A stretch of 64,000 nt of DNA from Clostridia bacterium (GTDB lineage Bacteria; Bacillota; Clostridia; Oscillospirales; Acutalibacteraceae): assembly GCA_017407705.1 (NCBI GenBank), contig JAFQWA010000007.1, positions 1 to 64,000 of the forward strand, written 5' to 3'. The notes beneath the pieces were generated by a model that was not told the DNA's origin, did no database searches, and saw only the letters and a list, made by a program, of their open reading frames with translations. Numbering within the stretch: position 1 is the stretch's first letter; each line of letters begins with the position of its first letter. Shown piece by piece: positions 16,944 through 27,149 of this stretch. A program made the translations under genes and the position numbers.

Positions 16944-18830
16944 ATGAAAAAAGTACTTACATCTCTTTTATGTGTTTTACTGGTAGTTTCCATATTCGTG
17001 ACTCACGCTATGGCAACCACCAAACCCTCTACTGATGAAAGTCAGTTTATGCCCATTAACGGTGCAAGACTTGCCGCTTTCGGTGATAGTATTACAGAGT
17101 ACGGAAGCTATTGGCAGGGCATAGTAGCTGAAGAAACCGGCGCTACTGTTGTTAACTGCGGTAAAGGCGGCAGTAATACAGGCTATGCCAATAACCACGC
17201 TCTTGAAAGATTTGACCGCGTGGTAGCACCGCAATTCCCTGATTTTGTTACCATCATGTTTGGTGTTAACGATGCGGTTAAACGTACAGGTATGAATTCA
17301 GCTGTTCCTCTGGATGAATTTGAAGAGAATATTAAAACCATTATCTCCAAGGTAAAAGCCATCGGTGCTATTCCGATTTTGATCACAGAGCACCACGTTG
17401 AAGAAACTGCCTGGTATTCAAGATACGATGAGGAGAGATTTGCTGCTGACGGTGGCATCAATGCTTATCTTGATAAGTATTATGATGTTGAACGTACCAT
17501 TGCACAAGAGCAGAATATACATATCATAGATTTCACCGAAGAGCTTGATAAATACGCACAGGCTGATGTACTGCAGGCTGACGGCGTTCACTTCACAAAA
17601 GCAGGTCAGGACGTTTTGGCAAACTGCATTTCCACATTCCTTAAAGAGAATTTCCCCGGTGTTGCACCCGAAACATCTACCAAATACACCGTAACCTCTG
17701 CAACCACCACTGTTGCAGGTCAGACTACTACTGCACCTGTGGTTGATCCCGGTAACGGTCCTAAGCAGTACACCACTGTTTGCAATTTCACAGTGCTTCC
17801 CGGCGGTGTAAATAAAACCAACATCTCATCTGTTTCCATTGTGGATGAAAAGGGACTGTGCGCTCCTGATTCCACCGATACAAAACTGCTTGCACTTATT
17901 CCCGGTGCCGGGGCAGACGCTACAACTGCTGCCGCCACATACACCTTCGGCTTTGGAGGAAGCGGTAGTTCAAAAACCGAGAAGCCCAACGTGGTTATGG
18001 CAGGTGACGGTCTTAGAATCTGGATCAATTTCACCTGTGATGAATACCAGACCTTAAGCTTTAACTTCACACTCCACACTTATGGTGACTCTGAAAACGT
18101 TACCGGTGCGGCTTTTACTGTTAAAGGCGTTACTGTTGAAGATCAGGGTCAGTGGGTGATGATTCCTTACTCTGCATTTACTAACTCCACAGGCAGTCTG
18201 GAAGATTCAACCAACGGCACCAGAGAACAGAGAATTGCGGCTATCAATCGTATTGGTATTTCTGCAACAGTTCCCACTGCCAGTGATGTTAACTATATTT
18301 ACAGCATTTATGTTGATAGCTTAGGCTACTATACAAACGTTGAGGAAACAACTGAGACCACTGCTTCAACTACCGCAGAGGTCACTACTGCAGCAACCAC
18401 CACAGCGCCTGAAAATTATGAAAATCCCTATACCGTTAGCGGCGGATTTATTTCGGGTGTGGCTGATAACAGCATTGATAACTTTGTAGCTTCATTTAAT
18501 TGCACCAACGGTGCGTCGGTGGTTATCAAAAGCGGAGAAGATACCGTTACATCAGGTAAGCTTGCTACAGGTATGATAGTGCAGATTTTGCAGGACGGTA
18601 ATGTGGTTGACCAGTTTACTGTGGTAATCTACGGCGATATTGACGGTGACGGAAATATTAACGCATCGGATATGCTTTCCTTAAAACGTGTGCTTTTGCT
18701 GGTAAGCGATCTTGATGGTGCATACAAAATTGCGGCTAACGTTACCCACAAAGAAACTGTGGATGCCACCGCTACCGATATGCTTAAATTAAAACGAGTA
18801 TTATTGATGGTGGATACCATAACTCAATAA
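16944..18830 (+). CDS. Secreted SGNH esterase with C-terminal dockerin
   Basis: A 628-residue modular exported enzyme. A signal peptide (1-24) precedes an SGNH esterase domain (about 40-235) with FGDSIT (Ser49), FGVND (Asn109) and DGVHFT (Asp213, His216). A Thr-rich linker (236-275) leads to a beta-sandwich module (about 276-465), a second Thr/Ala linker, a small beta module (about 490-555) and a type I dockerin. The first dockerin repeat, GDIDGDGNINASDMLSLKR, has a complete calcium loop; the second, from about 600, keeps DMLKLKRVLL but has lost most calcium ligands. Likely deacetylates plant polysaccharides. Whether a cohesin scaffold exists cannot be judged here. Confidence 0.9.
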   Translation: MKKVLTSLLCVLLVVSIFVTHAMATTKPSTDESQFMPINGARLAAFGDSITEYGSYWQGIVAEETGATVVNCGKGGSNTGYANNHALERFDRVVAPQFPDFVTIMFGVNDAVKRTGMNSAVPLDEFEENIKTIISKVKAIGAIPILITEHHVEETAWYSRYDEERFAADGGINAYLDKYYDVERTIAQEQNIHIIDFTEELDKYAQADVLQADGVHFTKAGQDVLANCISTFLKENFPGVAPETSTKYTVTSATTTVAGQTTTAPVVDPGNGPKQYTTVCNFTVLPGGVNKTNISSVSIVDEKGLCAPDSTDTKLLALIPGAGADATTAAATYTFGFGGSGSSKTEKPNVVMAGDGLRIWINFTCDEYQTLSFNFTLHTYGDSENVTGAAFTVKGVTVEDQGQWVMIPYSAFTNSTGSLEDSTNGTREQRIAAINRIGISATVPTASDVNYIYSIYVDSLGYYTNVEETTETTASTTAEVTTAATTTAPENYENPYTVSGGFISGVADNSIDNFVASFNCTNGASVVIKSGEDTVTSGKLATGMIVQILQDGNVVDQFTVVIYGDIDGDGNINASDMLSLKRVLLLVSDLDGAYKIAANVTHKETVDATATDMLKLKRVLLMVDTITQ

Positions 18831-19571: not shown

Positions 19572-20708
19572 TTGCTGAAGGGTTATCTTGACAATGCGGC
19601 AACTACACAGTTGTGTGATGAATCGAAAAATGCCATAATATCAGCGCTGGATTGTTTTGGAAATCCCTCGTCGTTACATAAGCTGGGGCAAATAAGCTCT
19701 GCTCAGTTGGAAAGTGCCCGTGCCAACGTTGCTAATGAGATAAAAGCAGATAAGAGTGAGATATATTTCACCTCAGGCGGTACTGAGTCGGACAACCTGG
19801 CTATAAGAGGTGCTGCTATGGCACTGAAACGTAGGGGTAATAAAATAGTCACCACTGCTTTTGAACACGCCGCAGTGCTTTCCGCTATGGCTGATTTGCA
19901 AAAGCAAGGCTTTGAGGTGGTTTATTTAAACCCTGATGAAAGCGGCACTGTGCCGGTATCGGCATTTGAAAATGCCATTGATGATAAGACTATACTGGTA
20001 AGCTGTATGTATATTAACAACGAAACCGGTGCAGTGTTGCCTGTACAGTCTTTAAAGGCGATTATCAAGCGCAAAAAGTCTCCTGCAGTTTTACATTGTG
20101 ATGCCACTCAGGCTTTCGGAAAATACACGTTAAACCCCGAAAAAGAGGGGATAGACTTAATGACGCTGAGTGCCCATAAAATTCACGGGCCAAAGGGCGT
20201 GGGTGCGCTTTACATCAAAAAGGGTGTAAGAGTATTGCCCATAACCTTCGGCGGCGGTCAGGAGAAGACTATTCGTCCCGGCACTGAGCCGTTACCACTG
20301 ATTTTGGGATTTGCTGTTGCGGTGGAAAGTCTTGGTGATAAAAAGGCAAACGAGCAAAACGCTTTGCAGATAAAAGAGTATCTTAAAAACAAGCTCAGTG
20401 AGTTTGATGACGTTGTAATAAATTCTCCCGAAAATTCAACTGCTTATATTTTGAATTTTTCGGTTATGGGTATCAGAAGCGAAACCATGCTTCATTTTTT
20501 GGAGCAAAAAGGAGTTTACGTTTCCTCAGGCAGTGCTTGTTCAAAGGGTAAAGCCAGTCACGTGCTTAGTGCCCTTAATTTTAACAGAGATAGGATAGAC
20601 AGTGCTGTCAGAGTAAGCTTTTCAAGGTATTCTACCGTTGAAGACGCAGATATGCTGTATGATGCCATAAAAGAGGCAAGGACAAGCCTTATAAGGTCAA
20701 AAAGATAA
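19572..20708 (+). CDS. nifS: Cysteine desulfurase
   Basis: PLP enzyme releasing sulfur from cysteine as an enzyme persulfide. YLDNAATT lies at the N-terminus, the PLP lysine is Lys203 in SAHKIHGPKG, and the sulfur-carrying Cys323 is in SSGSACSKGK. 378 residues match the NifS/IscS group. The start is taken as TTG 19572 because no in-frame ATG or GTG lies upstream and family members start just before YLDNAATT; the ribosome site is poor. thiI follows after 15 bases, so the sulfur is probably passed to ThiI for 4-thiouridine in tRNA, the arrangement known from B. subtilis nifZ-thiI. Confidence 0.93.
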   Translation: MLKGYLDNAATTQLCDESKNAIISALDCFGNPSSLHKLGQISSAQLESARANVANEIKADKSEIYFTSGGTESDNLAIRGAAMALKRRGNKIVTTAFEHAAVLSAMADLQKQGFEVVYLNPDESGTVPVSAFENAIDDKTILVSCMYINNETGAVLPVQSLKAIIKRKKSPAVLHCDATQAFGKYTLNPEKEGIDLMTLSAHKIHGPKGVGALYIKKGVRVLPITFGGGQEKTIRPGTEPLPLILGFAVAVESLGDKKANEQNALQIKEYLKNKLSEFDDVVINSPENSTAYILNFSVMGIRSETMLHFLEQKGVYVSSGSACSKGKASHVLSALNFNRDRIDSAVRVSFSRYSTVEDADMLYDAIKEARTSLIRSKR

Positions 20709-20723
20709 ATTTAAGGGGAATAT

Positions 20724-21893
20724 ATGAGAGAAATTATATTGATAAAAAACGGAGAGTTGGCGCTTAAGGGTCTTAACCGTCACACCTTCGAGGATGTAAT
20801 GATAAAAAACATCAAAATGTCTATAAAAAGCCTGGGTCAGGTGAAAATAACCAAAGCTCAGTCCACTATTATGGTAGAGCCTCAGTGTGAGGACTATGAT
20901 ATGGACGAAGCGGCAAAGAGGATAGGCAAGGTGTTTGGCATTGCGGCGTTTTCACGTGCTTGCGTTGCCGAGAAAAATATGGATGATATTTTAGCCAAAG
21001 CCCCTGATTATCTTAAGGAGCAGCTGGAGTCTGCCAATACCTTCAAGGTGGTGGCAAAACGCTCTGACAAGGCTTTTGAGTACAAATCACCTGATATTTG
21101 CTGTATGACAGGTGAGGCACTGCTTAACGCTTACCCTCATCTTACGGTAGATGTTCATAACCCCGAAGTTACCGTTATGGTTGAAATAAGAGATTACGGT
21201 GCATATATCCACGCTGATCAGTTGCCCGGTGCAGGTGGTATGCCTGTAGGTACCGGCGGTAAAGCAGCTATACTGATTTCAGGCGGAATTGACAGTCCCG
21301 TTGCCGCTTATATGATGGCAAAACGTGGTGTAGAGCTTACTGCAATTCACTTTGCAAGTCCGCCTTATACCAGCGAGAGGGCAGAGCAGAAGGTAAAGGA
21401 TCTTTTATCTATCGTTGCTCAGTATGCAGGGCCTATAAACTTTATTTACGTGCCCTTTACCGAGATTCAGGAGCAGATCGCAAGAAACTGTCCTGATGAC
21501 CTTACAACCTTGGTAATGCGTAGATATATGATGAAGCTGGCAACTGCCATTGCTAAAAATAAAGGCTGTGATGCTCTTATTACAGGTGAGAGTATAGGTC
21601 AGGTAGCAAGTCAGACTATGAAGGCGTTAGCCGTTACCGATGCCGCTACCGATATGCCGGTGTTCCGTCCTTTGATCGGTATGGATAAGGATGAAATCAT
21701 TGCCATAGCAAGAAAGATCGGCACCTTCGAAACGTCAGTACTTCCCTTTGAGGATTGCTGCACAGTATTTACTCCTAAGCACCCGAGAACACGTCCTAAG
21801 CTTGAAGCAGTTGAGACTGCCGAAAATATGATCGACGGTGTGGCACTTAGTGAGGTTGCTATACAGAACGTTAAATACGAAAGAATAATCTGA
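20724..21893 (+). CDS. thiI: tRNA 4-thiouridine sulfurtransferase
   Basis: A 389-residue ThiI. The N-terminal ferredoxin-like and THUMP regions (1-165) bind tRNA; the PP-loop SGGIDSP at 186-192 adenylates U8; EDCCTVFTPKHP near 343-354 is the conserved Cys block. The C-terminal rhodanese domain of the E. coli protein is absent, as in most Firmicutes, which fits a dedicated NifS partner. AAGGGGA stands before the ATG. It lies 15 bases after nifS and 19 bases before the cinA fusion gene. Confidence 0.95.
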   Translation: MREIILIKNGELALKGLNRHTFEDVMIKNIKMSIKSLGQVKITKAQSTIMVEPQCEDYDMDEAAKRIGKVFGIAAFSRACVAEKNMDDILAKAPDYLKEQLESANTFKVVAKRSDKAFEYKSPDICCMTGEALLNAYPHLTVDVHNPEVTVMVEIRDYGAYIHADQLPGAGGMPVGTGGKAAILISGGIDSPVAAYMMAKRGVELTAIHFASPPYTSERAEQKVKDLLSIVAQYAGPINFIYVPFTEIQEQIARNCPDDLTTLVMRRYMMKLATAIAKNKGCDALITGESIGQVASQTMKALAVTDAATDMPVFRPLIGMDKDEIIAIARKIGTFETSVLPFEDCCTVFTPKHPRTRPKLEAVETAENMIDGVALSEVAIQNVKYERII

Positions 21894-21912: not shown

Positions 21913-24900
21913 ATGAACGCAGAAATAATTTCTGTTGGAACAGAACTTATACTTGGAGATATAGTTAATACTGATGCACAGTATCTGTCACAAAAGTTGG
22001 CATCTATGGGTATTGACGTGTTTTATCAGTCCTCTGTTGGTGATAATCCTCAGCGACTCAGAAGAGTGCTGTCTATTGCGGTATCAAGAAGCAATATCAT
22101 CATTTTAACCGGCGGCCTTGGTCCCACTCAGGACGATCTTACCGTTAAAACCGTTTGTGATGCAGTGGGCATTGAAATGGTGCAGGACGAGGCTGCGTTG
22201 GAAAATATAAAGCAGTGCTTTGCAAAGTCGGGCAGAGAGCTTACTGAGAATAATCTCAAGCAGGCTATGGTTCCTAAGGGTGCAACTGTGTTCCAGAACA
22301 CCTGCGGTACTGCCCCCGGATGTGCTATTTCTCAGGGTGAGCAGTGCATAATTTTACTGCCCGGTCCGCCCAGCGAAATGAAAGCAATGTTTGAAAACGG
22401 CGTTGCACAGTATCTTATGAAATATTCCGACGGTGTAACTCTGTCTAAATTTGTTAATATCTATGGCTTAGGCGAGTCTAAAGTGGCTGAGATGGTGGGC
22501 GATCTGCTCAATGGCAGCAACCCCACTGTGGCACCTTACGCTAAAGACGGTGAAGTGGCACTGCGTGTTACCGCTAAAGCACAAAACCAGACCGCCGCTG
22601 ATGCTATGTGCAGAGAAATGGTGAGAGAACTTAAAAACCGTTTGGGCACTGCAGTTTACGGTGTGGATAAGGATAGTATTCAGCAGGTTGTTGTTGAGAT
22701 GCTCCAATCTAAGAGAATGACCGTTTCTACTGCTGAATCCTGCACTGCAGGACTTATCTCTAAGCGCATAACAGAAATCTCAGGCTCATCTGAGGTGTTC
22801 AATATGGGCGCTGTTACTTACTCAAATGAGAGTAAAAACAAGATGCTTGATGTTCCTATGGAAGCTATCGAGAAATACGGTGCCGTATCTCCTCAGGTGG
22901 CTGCGTTAATGGCAAAGGGTGTGCGTGAGGCATCTGGCTCTGATATTGGTATCAGCATTACAGGTATAGCTGGTCCTAAGAGCGATGACAGCAACAAGCC
23001 TGTTGGACTTAGTTATATCGCCCTTTCCGATAAAAACGGCGAGTATGTTATAGAAAGTATGAAGGGTGAGCACCACGGCAGAGAGTATATCCGTTATGCG
23101 TCATCCTCTGAGGCTTTAAATCTCATCAGACTTTATCTTGAAGCCTATCCTTCACAAATCAAGGGTGTAACCTTACTTACTGATTATGAACCCTATAAGC
23201 CTGAGGTGACAAAAGCTCAGCCTGAATTTACAGAAACTGTGCCCGTTGCAGAAAAGCCTCAGATTAATATTGCGGATTTTCAAATTCCCGTTACAGAGTT
23301 TACCGGCAGCACTGAAAAGGAAGACGTTTTAGCATCTATTGCAAAAATTTTCGGTGAGACCGTTATTACTCCTGCACCCCAGTCTCAGCCCATAACAGAG
23401 CCTGTACTGCCTTTTGAACCTAACGTGCAAGAGGAAGTAACTGAGGATAGCGTTGAGGAGACTGTAGAGGAGATTGCTGAAGAAACTGTGGAAGAAACAG
23501 TTGTACAAGAGGTTGCTGAAGAAACAGTTGAACAGCCCGTTGAAGAGGTTGTTGAGCCGGCACCTGTGCAGGTGGAGGAAAAACAGCCCGTTAACGAGAT
23601 AGAGGATATTTTCAACAGCATCAGCCAGAAATTAGCCGCTGAAACTACTCCCGATATAATCGAGGAAGAGTCTGTTGAGAATGTGGCTGATGAACAACCG
23701 GAGCAGCAAAAGCAAGACTCTGTTCTTATAAGAATACTGAAATATTTTATTCCTTGGAAAGGCGATCCTAAGGGAGAAATCGTAAGAAAGATAGTGTTTG
23801 TGGTTGCTCTTGTTACATTCATTGCAGTGGGCATCCACCTTATCGGCTACTATATGGCGCCGGTGCAGACAGAGAATCTGCAAAAGGAACTGGTGTCTAT
23901 ATACAAAGCTCCCGAAAAAGAGGAGATACCCTATGCCAGTGAGATCTCCAACCCCGACTTTAAGGATCTTTTGATCCGTAACAAGGATACTATCGGCTGG
24001 ATCAAGATAGGTGATACCAATATCAACTATCCCGTTGTTCAGCACCAGAAGGACGATTACTATCTCCGATTGGATTTTGACGGTAAATACAACCGTTGCG
24101 GTACTATTTACGCTAACACTGTAAGCAATATGGAATATAACAAGGAAAGCAAAAACCTTGTTTTATATGGCCATAATATGAGAGACGATAAGTCCATGTT
24201 CAGCCAGTTGCTCAGATACCGTAATCTGGAGTTTTATAAGGAAAATCCCGTTATTACCTTTAACACCATTCATAAAGACGGTCAGTGGAAAATATTTGCC
24301 GTAATGACCACCAACTCCAAAAAGGCTCACGATAACGGTAAGGTGTTTAATTACAGAAGAAGTGACTTTACTTCCGAGCAGGATTTTATGGAGTGGATTG
24401 AGCAGTGCAGAATACGTTCTGAGATAAACACTCCCGTTGATATAGTTGCTTCCGATGAAATACTCACCCTGCAGACCTGCGCTTATGAGTTTGACGAGGC
24501 AAGATATATAGTTATGGCACGTCGTGTACGTCCCGGAGAGTCAGCTGACGTTGAGGTCGGTATTGCTTCTAAAAATCCCAACACAGTATATCCCCAGATC
24601 TGGTACGATAAAAAGGGGATAAAGAATCCCCACGCATCTGTGGCTGCTACAACTTCACCCACAGAGCCGATTACCAGACCTTCTATTCCTACCCGTCCTA
24701 TGGGTACTGACGAGAGCACAAGTGCTACCTCTACTACCAATCAGAGCGGCACTACCGGCACTGCAAATTCCACTACAAAAGCGCCTACTCAGGCTCCGTC
24801 GGGCTCCACTACCACAGTGGCTCCCACAGCGGCACCTACCACAGCGGCGCTTACAACTGCCGCACCCACTACCGCTGCACCTACTACTGCAGCGCCCACT

Positions 24901-24987
24901 GAGGCTCCTACAGATGCGCCTACCGATGCACCTACAGAAGCTCCCACAGATGCGCCGACAGACGCACCTACCGAAGCCACAACTTAA
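21913..24987 (+). CDS. CinA-transmembrane-class B sortase fusion protein
   Basis: One uninterrupted 1024-residue frame. Residues 1-417 are a complete CinA: the MoaB-like COG1058 domain (ISVGTELILGD, TGGLGPTQDD, LPGPPSEM) and the C-terminal PncC deamidase domain (STAESCTAGLISKRIT, ISITGIAGP), enzymes of pyridine nucleotide salvage. Residues 418-605 are an acidic, repetitive E/V/P-rich linker. A single helix at about 625-647 crosses the membrane. Residues 670-875 form a class B sortase with LYGHNM (His754), TLQTC (Cys856) and Arg864 intact. The tail from about 915 is Thr/Ala/Pro-rich. AAGGAAA precedes ATG. CinA would be cytosolic and the sortase outside. No ribosome site or stop separates the parts. 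Confidence 0.88.
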   Translation: MNAEIISVGTELILGDIVNTDAQYLSQKLASMGIDVFYQSSVGDNPQRLRRVLSIAVSRSNIIILTGGLGPTQDDLTVKTVCDAVGIEMVQDEAALENIKQCFAKSGRELTENNLKQAMVPKGATVFQNTCGTAPGCAISQGEQCIILLPGPPSEMKAMFENGVAQYLMKYSDGVTLSKFVNIYGLGESKVAEMVGDLLNGSNPTVAPYAKDGEVALRVTAKAQNQTAADAMCREMVRELKNRLGTAVYGVDKDSIQQVVVEMLQSKRMTVSTAESCTAGLISKRITEISGSSEVFNMGAVTYSNESKNKMLDVPMEAIEKYGAVSPQVAALMAKGVREASGSDIGISITGIAGPKSDDSNKPVGLSYIALSDKNGEYVIESMKGEHHGREYIRYASSSEALNLIRLYLEAYPSQIKGVTLLTDYEPYKPEVTKAQPEFTETVPVAEKPQINIADFQIPVTEFTGSTEKEDVLASIAKIFGETVITPAPQSQPITEPVLPFEPNVQEEVTEDSVEETVEEIAEETVEETVVQEVAEETVEQPVEEVVEPAPVQVEEKQPVNEIEDIFNSISQKLAAETTPDIIEEESVENVADEQPEQQKQDSVLIRILKYFIPWKGDPKGEIVRKIVFVVALVTFIAVGIHLIGYYMAPVQTENLQKELVSIYKAPEKEEIPYASEISNPDFKDLLIRNKDTIGWIKIGDTNINYPVVQHQKDDYYLRLDFDGKYNRCGTIYANTVSNMEYNKESKNLVLYGHNMRDDKSMFSQLLRYRNLEFYKENPVITFNTIHKDGQWKIFAVMTTNSKKAHDNGKVFNYRRSDFTSEQDFMEWIEQCRIRSEINTPVDIVASDEILTLQTCAYEFDEARYIVMARRVRPGESADVEVGIASKNPNTVYPQIWYDKKGIKNPHASVAATTSPTEPITRPSIPTRPMGTDESTSATSTTNQSGTTGTANSTTKAPTQAPSGSTTTVAPTAAPTTAALTTAAPTTAAPTTAAPTEAPTDAPTDAPTEAPTDAPTDAPTEATT

Positions 24988-25005
24988 GCCCAAGAATAAC
25001 ATTTT

Positions 25006-25044
25006 ACAGCCGAACAATAACATAAAGGTTGTTCGGCTGTTTTA
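25006..25044 (+). terminator. Terminator or attenuator between the two sortase-type genes
   Basis: ACAGCCGAACAA (25006-25017) and TTGTTCGGCTGT (25029-25040) with TTT after. A second hairpin, AATGTC-GATTTTT-GACATT (25054-25072), ends just before the GGAGGTG of the next gene. No promoter fits between this stem and the next start. Confidence 0.75.
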
Positions 25045-25085
25045 CTACTGTTAAATGTCGATTTTTGACATTTGGAGGTGAAAAT

Positions 25086-27149
25086 ATGGATAAACAGCCT
25101 GAATTTCAGGAGGAAAATGTAAATCAGCAGCCTACCAGTACCGATGAACAGATTTCGTTGATGCTGGATGAGCTTTTTGGCAAGGAAACTGATGAGGAAA
25201 TATCAGAGCAGCCTGAACCCGTTGCTGTTGAGGATACAGTGAAAAAACCGAAAAAACTGTTAAAACCGCTGTTAGCGTTGCTTTTGGTAGTGTGTATTAT
25301 CATTGGCTCAGTGACGGCAGTATCATATTATAAAAAGGCCACGGTGCCTGATGCTTATGATAAGTCAGTAGCTTACAGCAGAGAGCTTTATTCATCGGAT
25401 AAACAGTATGATATGCCCGAACAGTATTTGCCGGAGTTTGGTGGGTTGTATAACGCCAATCGTGATATTTTCGGCTGGATAGACATTGAGGGAACTGATA
25501 TAAATCATCCTGTTATGTCCTATAAAAACAACGACTATTACAAGGATCATTTATTTAACAACCGCTCCAATAAATACGGTACCTTTTATTTTGCTTCCAA
25601 TTACAAGCAGCTTGAGTATAATTACAACACTGTAATTTACGGCAACAATTTCTCCGACTCCCGTGCTTTTGGTGAGCTTGTGAAATACACAGATGCTGAC
25701 TTTGTAGAAGAAAACCCCATTATAAATATGGATACTTTAATGGAGAAGGTATCCTGGAAGATATTTGCCGTAGTGCTGTATGACAGTGATAAATACAACC
25801 CTGCCAAAAACAGCTTTTACGACGACGTTGAGTTCAGTGAGTTTATTTTGGATATTGAAAAATATACCCTTATTAAAACCTCGGTGGACGTTAGTGAGGA
25901 GGATGTTTTGCTCACACTGATCACCGATCATAACAGTAAAAACGGTGATAAATTGGCTGTTTTTGCCCGTGCTATGAGGTTTTATGAGAGTGAAGAGGAT
26001 GAGGTGTTTGCTCATTTTAACGATGCAGCACAAACCCCGTCTAATCAGCACAGCACCACTGATGAGCAAAAGATAACTGCTAACGCTACTGTTTTGCAGT
26101 CAACCTTAACTCAGGGCACAACCCAGAGTCCGGACACTACTCAAACATCGGTTGAAGCCACAACTGCTACAACCACTAAAACCACCGCTACAACCACCAA
26201 AGTCACTACTAAACCCACCACAACCAAACCTACTACCGCTAAACCAACTACAACCACCAAACCCACTACTAAGCCCACTACTAAGCCTACCACCACCAAA
26301 AAACCTACTACCACCAAGCCTACCACCACTCAAAAGCCATCAGGCACAGCAAAAAAGATACGTGTAAAGGATTCCTCAACAGGTAAGATATATTATGAGG
26401 AAGCACCTGCTATAATTGCAAAAATAATTGAAGCTGAAATGGGCTCAAGCTATGAACTTGAGGCATTAAAGGCTCAGGCAGTTGCTGCATATACTTATAT
26501 GCTTTACAGCGGTGCGGCAGACGGTAAAGCCCCGTCGGCACCTATGAAAACTGCAGGAAGCCGTGCTATACAAGCCGCTAACGCTGTTGCAGGACAAACC
26601 ATAACCTATAACGGTCAGCTGTGTAATGCGGTGTATTCTGCAACCTCTGCAGGAAAAACCGCTAACTGCAACGAGGTCTGGACTGCAGACCTGCCGTATC
26701 TCCGCTCAGTGGACTCAGCGGTGGATGAAAGCGTTTCTAACTTTAAGACCACCCGTGTTTACACTGCAAGTAACATAGCGAAATGGGTGAAATCCGAGTA
26801 CGGTGTGGACCTTACCACCGTTAAGGATAAAACCAAGTGGTTTAGCTGCACTTACGACGCCAATAAGCTTTATGTGAAAACAGTTTCCTTAGGCGGACTT
26901 AAGTCGGTTAAAGGCATCAATTTACGTTATGATCTGTTTACTTCATCCCGAACAGGCTCGTCTAACACCCTTCGTTCCCACGCTTTTACCGTGTCTTACA
27001 GCTCATCAAACGATAGCTTCACCTTTACCGTTAAGGGCTACGGTCACGGCGTTGGACTGAGTCAGACCGGCGCTAATCAGTATGCTAAAAAGGGCTGGAG
27101 CTACGCTGAGATATTAAAGCATTATTATAAAGGCGTTACTTTATCATAA
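25086..27149 (+). CDS. Membrane-anchored pseudo-sortase fused to SpoIID/LytB domain
   Basis: A 687-residue protein. A cytoplasmic tail (1-58, acidic then KKPKK) leads to a membrane helix (about 61-82). Residues 110-300 have the class B sortase fold pattern (NRDIFGWIDIEGTDINHPVM, NRSNKYGTFYF), but the catalytic His is Asn187 (YGNNF) and the Cys is Asp281 (TLITD); Arg295 remains, so transpeptidase activity is not expected. After a TTKPTT-rich linker (about 345-420) comes a SpoIID domain (about 425-687) with AEMGSSYELEALKAQAVAAY, catalytic-type Glu451, and GYGHGVGLSQTGA; SpoIID cleaves denuded glycan strands in engulfment. Start ATG 25086 is set by GGAGGTG; the frame is open from 25029. Confidence 0.87.
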   Translation: MDKQPEFQEENVNQQPTSTDEQISLMLDELFGKETDEEISEQPEPVAVEDTVKKPKKLLKPLLALLLVVCIIIGSVTAVSYYKKATVPDAYDKSVAYSRELYSSDKQYDMPEQYLPEFGGLYNANRDIFGWIDIEGTDINHPVMSYKNNDYYKDHLFNNRSNKYGTFYFASNYKQLEYNYNTVIYGNNFSDSRAFGELVKYTDADFVEENPIINMDTLMEKVSWKIFAVVLYDSDKYNPAKNSFYDDVEFSEFILDIEKYTLIKTSVDVSEEDVLLTLITDHNSKNGDKLAVFARAMRFYESEEDEVFAHFNDAAQTPSNQHSTTDEQKITANATVLQSTLTQGTTQSPDTTQTSVEATTATTTKTTATTTKVTTKPTTTKPTTAKPTTTTKPTTKPTTKPTTTKKPTTTKPTTTQKPSGTAKKIRVKDSSTGKIYYEEAPAIIAKIIEAEMGSSYELEALKAQAVAAYTYMLYSGAADGKAPSAPMKTAGSRAIQAANAVAGQTITYNGQLCNAVYSATSAGKTANCNEVWTADLPYLRSVDSAVDESVSNFKTTRVYTASNIAKWVKSEYGVDLTTVKDKTKWFSCTYDANKLYVKTVSLGGLKSVKGINLRYDLFTSSRTGSSNTLRSHAFTVSYSSSNDSFTFTVKGYGHGVGLSQTGANQYAKKGWSYAEILKHYYKGVTLS

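Follow-up and report, generated by a model that had tools for sequence, protein, structure and literature searches.

A conserved sortase-like domain lacking the catalytic triad, fused to SpoIID/LytB beside a live class B sortase in Acutalibacteraceae

Genes and features of the locus

The window analysed here is a stretch of 64,000 nucleotides from a Clostridia bacterium of the family Acutalibacteraceae (contig JAFQWA010000007.1). A sequence-only reading had proposed that it encodes a sortase-like domain devoid of the catalytic His and Cys, joined in one open reading frame to a SpoIID domain and lying directly downstream of a live CinA-sortase fusion. Both the gene order and the fusion were confirmed, the former with the live triad H754/C856/R864 intact, the latter by profile matches (TIGR03064 and TIGR02669) and structure models, and the residue numbers given at the time (N187, D281, R295, E451) all agreed with the translation. 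The features of the locus are listed below; related stretches from other genomes are cited by their L numbers.

19572..20708, + strand: NifS-like cysteine desulfurase, upstream neighbour (Pfam; likewise in L063, L069 and L197, by eye)
20724..21893, + strand: thiI, conserved upstream neighbour of the array (Pfam; likewise upstream in L063, L065, L069 and L197, by eye)
21913..24987, + strand: fusion of CinA and a class B sortase (H754, C856, R864) with a Thr/Pro-rich C-terminal tail (Pfam, NCBIfam, alignment)
25006..25045, + strand: terminator-like stem-loop between the live and dead sortase genes (minimum free energy -20.5 kcal/mol over 24995-25055, z -5.1)
25086..27149, + strand: pseudosortase-SpoIID fusion protein, 687 aa (ORF list, NCBIfam matches)
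25086..25256, + strand: acidic N-terminal segment, residues 1-57, probably cytoplasmic by inferred topology (16 D+E versus 6 K+R)
25257..25325, + strand: single transmembrane helix, residues ~58-80 (hydropathy maximum 2.77)
25335..26030, + strand: class B sortase fold, catalytically dead (N187, D281, K289), residues 84-315 (profile, alignment, model)
26034..26393, + strand: Thr/Pro/Lys-rich linker, residues 317-436 (Thr at 48 of 120 residues)
26424..27146, + strand: SpoIID/LytB domain, residues 447-687, catalytic Glu451 kept (NCBIfam, model, alignment)

The open reading frame of the fusion protein starts with ATG, preceded by a GGAGG ribosome-binding site at 25074, and the motif KKPKK stands immediately N-terminal of the membrane helix. 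The class B sortase model of NCBIfam (TIGR03064) matched residues 57-286 (E 1.1e-34) with 119.8 bits, which is under the equivalog cut-off of 153.75, whereas the upstream live copy is over it (158.2). The Pfam Sortase model gave no match to the dead domain of the 687-aa protein, and profile comparison of this domain with SrtB structures gave an E value of 5e-51. The SpoIID_LytB model (TIGR02669) matched residues 447-687 (E 1.9e-48, 165.7 bits), passing the domain cut-off of 83.3.

The live CinA-SrtB frame, in which CinA is intact, ends 98 bp upstream of the pseudosortase frame. The fusion of CinA to a membrane-anchored live SrtB is common to many genera of the family and is therefore not a local artefact. 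It puts a nicotinamide-nucleotide amidase domain on the inner side of the sortase. The stem-loop between the two genes was missed by a consensus terminator scan, probably owing to its loop length. Similar intergenic hairpins are present in some arrays (L039, L044, L045 and L057); others have none, with gaps between the live and dead genes down to 23-75 nt. Where present, the hairpin may lead to unequal expression of the two genes.

The window also encodes a GDSL lipase with a dockerin (16944-18830). Together with a locus at G000:C19:12238-12606 it belongs to a minimal cellulosome-like set; the genome has 15 dockerin matches and one cohesin protein with a membrane helix at its end. On contig C19, the gene L211:7918-8478, directly upstream of another sortase gene of this genome, encodes a small, secreted protein bearing a membrane helix at its C-terminus, possibly a substrate of that adjoining sortase.

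Fold and active sites of the two domains

An AlphaFold2 model of the sortase domain of the window protein was built with 17 related rows. This model of the dead domain (mean pLDDT 88.4, pTM 0.87) had SrtB structures as its best matches; 2oqw was matched in Foldseek with an E value of 2.4e-19 and TM scores of 0.80/0.88, and structure alignment with the same B. anthracis SrtB entry gave a Z score of 26.4 at 2.3 A over 205 residues. The best 50 fold-search matches were all sortases. The predicted structure is thus that of SrtB, as the sequence-only reading had supposed, and not a dissimilar fold.

The catalytic residues of B. anthracis SrtB are H140, C233 and R243, and its beta7-beta8 loop has been described (PMC11987632); the catalytic Arg of C. 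difficile SrtB is R217 (PMC11987632; PDB 6kyd title). Residues were assigned by MAFFT alignments, which are in agreement with the structure match. They bear out the earlier claim that the catalytic His and Cys are replaced, by N187 and D281, respectively. A further claim, that Arg295 is the retained catalytic Arg, had to be dropped: Arg295 pairs with K249 of B. anthracis SrtB, which has no catalytic role, and R243 aligns with Lys289, an assignment that also agrees with the beta7-beta8 loops (PMC11987632). The entire His/Cys/Arg triad has therefore changed.

The same positions were compared across 35 dead domains, defined by the loss of both His and Cys. The catalytic-Arg position holds Arg in 26% of them, Lys in 23% and Ser in 17%, compared with Arg in 99% of 84 live domains. 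The His position is occupied by N (69%), K, S, R or Q, and the Cys position by D, P, S, Q, K, Y, H, N, R, E, T or V, with no shared residue and hence no substitute nucleophile. The pair Asn187/Asp281 is thus not universal, and Asp, found at the Cys position in only 23%, was ruled out as a catalytic replacement for Cys. Although the fold is intact, we consider it very improbable that the domain is still catalytic via other residues, since no active-site residue that could serve as nucleophile or base is conserved across the 35 sequences. On the basis of its residues, the domain is predicted to be inactive as a transpeptidase.

The peptide pocket is eroded as well, around a fold core that is retained. 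Most dead domains have V, I or T in place of Ser231 of B. anthracis SrtB, the P4 contact (Ile279 in the window protein), and K, E or A in place of the peptide contact Leu106 (Lys153). A third contact, Tyr191, corresponds to Pro239 in the window protein; 75% of dead domains have Tyr or Phe there. With its contacts replaced, a canonical sorting-signal pocket is unlikely in the window protein. This bears on the function first proposed for the dead domain, namely that it binds the sorting signal, or the peptidoglycan cross-bridge or lipid II, and positions the SpoIID domain there. The SrtB fold, kept across the whole domain, and the partly kept contacts, such as the aromatic residue at the Tyr191 position, speak for such binding. 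However, the substrate-binding Arg is gone in most members (Arg295 being a different Arg), neither the Ser231 nor the Leu106 position is preserved, and Tyr191 is replaced by Pro in the window protein. Recognition of a canonical sorting signal is therefore disfavoured by the residues present, and the reading as a whole appears improbable to us. The other half of the proposal, the positioning of SpoIID, stays plausible, given the invariant E451.

With class B sortases (TIGR03064; PDB 2oqw, 4lfd, 4ux7) the window protein has in common its fold, N-terminal helix, membrane anchoring and sequence relation. Unlike them, it is without the triad and the peptide-pocket residues, lies under the equivalog cut-off and is fused to SpoIID.

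The model of the SpoIID domain (pLDDT 94.1) matched the SpoIID structures of B. anthracis and C. difficile. A Glu at this site is essential in B. subtilis SpoIID (E88; PMC6635528) and in C. difficile SpoIID (E101; PMC6221140), and all 61 SpoIID domains of the clusters examined have it, as E451 in the window protein. By homology and this one residue, the domain probably cleaves glycan strands. It shares its fold and catalytic Glu with sporulation SpoIID (TIGR02870; PDB 4rwr, 5i1t), from which it differs by being carried on a pseudosortase stalk and by scoring under the cut-off of that equivalog model (158.4 versus 234.75 bits). A separate gene of the genome, G000:C33:86555-87388, passes with 258.8 bits, which rules out the window protein as the sporulation SpoIID. 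SpoIIP is also encoded. With its own sporulation SpoIID and SpoIIP, the genome probably uses the SpoIID domain described here for another job.

Distribution, descent and selection

Homologues were searched for in 200 genomes of the same family. Relatives were found in nearly all of them, and were full-length or near full-length in dozens. An initial contig scan using the window protein alone as query had returned no match. A combined model at E <= 1e-62, a cut-off that weaker relatives would escape, gave no match outside the order among 391 genomes of the class. Stretches around 40 relatives from the family and 20 from the order were then annotated for CinA, sortase and SpoIID domains.

The dead domains number 35 in total, 33 of them from 33 genomes and 25 genera of the family including the window (genus counts being lower bounds), and the other two from an Oscillospiraceae MAG (L074) and a sister family (L197). 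His and Cys are missing in all 35, so that no intact orthologue came to light, and a local sequencing error or recent mutation is ruled out by the consistent loss and the age of the clade. For 32 dead copies the upstream sequence reaches far enough to tell; 29 of these follow immediately after a live sortase on the same strand, the exceptions being L063, L069 and L197. The 29 include L047, in which the dead frame begins within the live gene, and L034, whose live sortase (L034:546-2200) is split over two frames, with His in one and Cys and Arg in the other, reflecting a frameshift or an assembly error.

Five architectures can be told apart:

(i) CinA-live SrtB followed by dead sortase-SpoIID, as in the window
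(ii) triple fusion CinA-dead sortase-SpoIID, with a separate live sortase ~1.2-2.4 kb upstream: L054, L055, L058, L059, L062, L064, L072
(iii) split genes: L060
(iv) in the sister family, between one and four live sortases together with a short CinA/PncC gene, and SpoIID in a gene of its own: L187-L194, L199, L200
(v) live sortase-SpoIID fusions: L068, L078, L184, L185

The triple-fusion proteins measure ~1150-1200 aa (for example L055:9904-13491, L058:983-4483 and L062:8099-11572), and as many as four live class B sortases stand in a row in L187-L194. In L197:6672-9344 and L069:7377-9965, a seemingly degenerate CinA-like domain accompanies a dead sortase without SpoIID; both genes still lie downstream of nifS- and thiI-like genes. 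The unfused clusters of the sister family, with their live sortases, and the live sortase-SpoIID fusions make the link between SrtB and SpoIID independent of catalytic loss. This repeated association, fused or unfused and with a live or a dead sortase, suggests a functional pair.

In a tree of 65 rows, one branch splits live from dead domains, with the exception of L069, which represents an independent loss. A tree of 101 rows, which left out three very long-branched dead ones and took B. anthracis SrtB as its root, grouped 30 dead rows in a single clade (SH-aLRT 98) and showed L069 and L197 to be separate losses. The suggestion that duplication was followed by loss of catalysis is supported by the SrtB fold, by this deep and supported split, and by the fact that no related dead domain has kept His or Cys. 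Nei-Gojobori dN/dS ratios were 0.12-0.24 for dead domains, among pairs with usable dS, and 0.09-0.19 for live ones; several pairs were saturated and gave no ratio. Dead domains are thus under purifying selection, with a constraint close to that of live domains. At several positions, conservation is higher among the dead domains than among the live ones: Tyr at 79 and 95, Pro88, Thr137, Arg at 180, Ser at 196 and Trp at 224. These residues lie outside the active site and may mark a new interface. Conservation shows that the fold is needed; it does not indicate for what purpose.

These data weigh on the reading that ranks next after docking, which is discussed below. The dead domain could be a mere folded, membrane-proximal spacer, and the protein a general LytB-like wall-remodelling enzyme whose place beside the sortase reflects the history of the locus rather than a functional link. 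The cluster did arise through fusion and duplication of neighbouring genes, the catalytic-site positions drift freely, and some dead members (L063, L052) are very divergent. Yet a passive spacer does not readily account for a dN/dS close to that of live sortases, for the heightened conservation of Tyr at 79 and 95, Ser at 196 and Thr137, with the new interface it suggests, or for the live partner adjoining almost every dead copy. We regard it as unlikely.

A possible docking role for the pseudosortase

Our preferred reading, to which we assign a probability of roughly 45%, is that the ancient pseudosortase is a membrane-proximal docking module that ties the glycan-cleaving domain to the site of SrtB. 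It is preferred since the dead domain is constrained and yet lacks the triad and most of the peptide pocket. A duplicate of SrtB within a cinA-srtB-SpoIID cluster would have been fused to the SpoIID protein, and its His and Cys would have disappeared, as would the substrate-binding Arg in the majority of lineages. The resulting single-pass membrane protein would be held by its dead domain where the live SrtB works, perhaps through pairing with this paralogue. The long Thr-rich stalk would present the SpoIID domain to peptidoglycan, where Glu451 would cleave glycan strands and so open or trim the wall at the place of anchoring. The terminator-like hairpin between the live and dead genes counts against docking. 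Neither the srtB_target nor the LPXTG anchor models produced a match above cut-off in the genome, and scanning C-termini in the window and neighbouring stretches for an SrtB substrate yielded no clear signal. With no substrate recognised, the link to anchoring rests on gene neighbourhood.

The same hairpin, as a possible attenuator, would suit a different relationship, in which the live sortase is under the control of the dead domain, be it through inhibition, as a decoy or by allostery, and SpoIID was recruited for that purpose. A pair of paralogues in adjacent genes and dead-specific conservation would be expected here too, although docking explains the maintenance of the pair and the fusion to an intact SpoIID at least as well. 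We consider regulation slightly less probable even than sorting-signal binding.

The docking reading can be taken further. The pseudosortase and the adjacent live SrtB might form a hetero-complex that brings SpoIID to the anchoring site, a sortase-coupled wall-cutting machine found across the family, which in some genomes would include a CinA-pseudosortase-SpoIID chain spanning cytoplasm, membrane and wall. This extended version is doubtful, if somewhat less so than the passive spacer. Among known systems, the S. aureus pair SpdC-SagB offers a precedent for docking, since there a glycan-cleaving enzyme is brought to nascent peptidoglycan by its membrane partner (PMC12272431). It resembles the pseudosortase-SpoIID protein at most in its way of working; unlike the window protein, it consists of two separate proteins from unrelated families and has no sortase fold. 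Chlamydial SpoIID (PMC6635528) is a non-sporulation SpoIID/LytB example with the same type of glycan-cleaving domain, for which, unlike the window protein, no sortase-like domain is described. A literature search, with most subscription journals outside its coverage, returned no description of a pseudosortase, or of a sortase with SpoIID or CinA.

A sortase fold conserved without its catalytic residues next to a live paralogue in at least 25 genera would constitute a class of sortase pseudoenzymes, in a family of proteins so far known as enzymes. The pseudosortase explains why automatic annotation finds two class B sortases where only one can work. It would also point to a glycan-cutting partner for SrtB anchoring in gut Clostridia.
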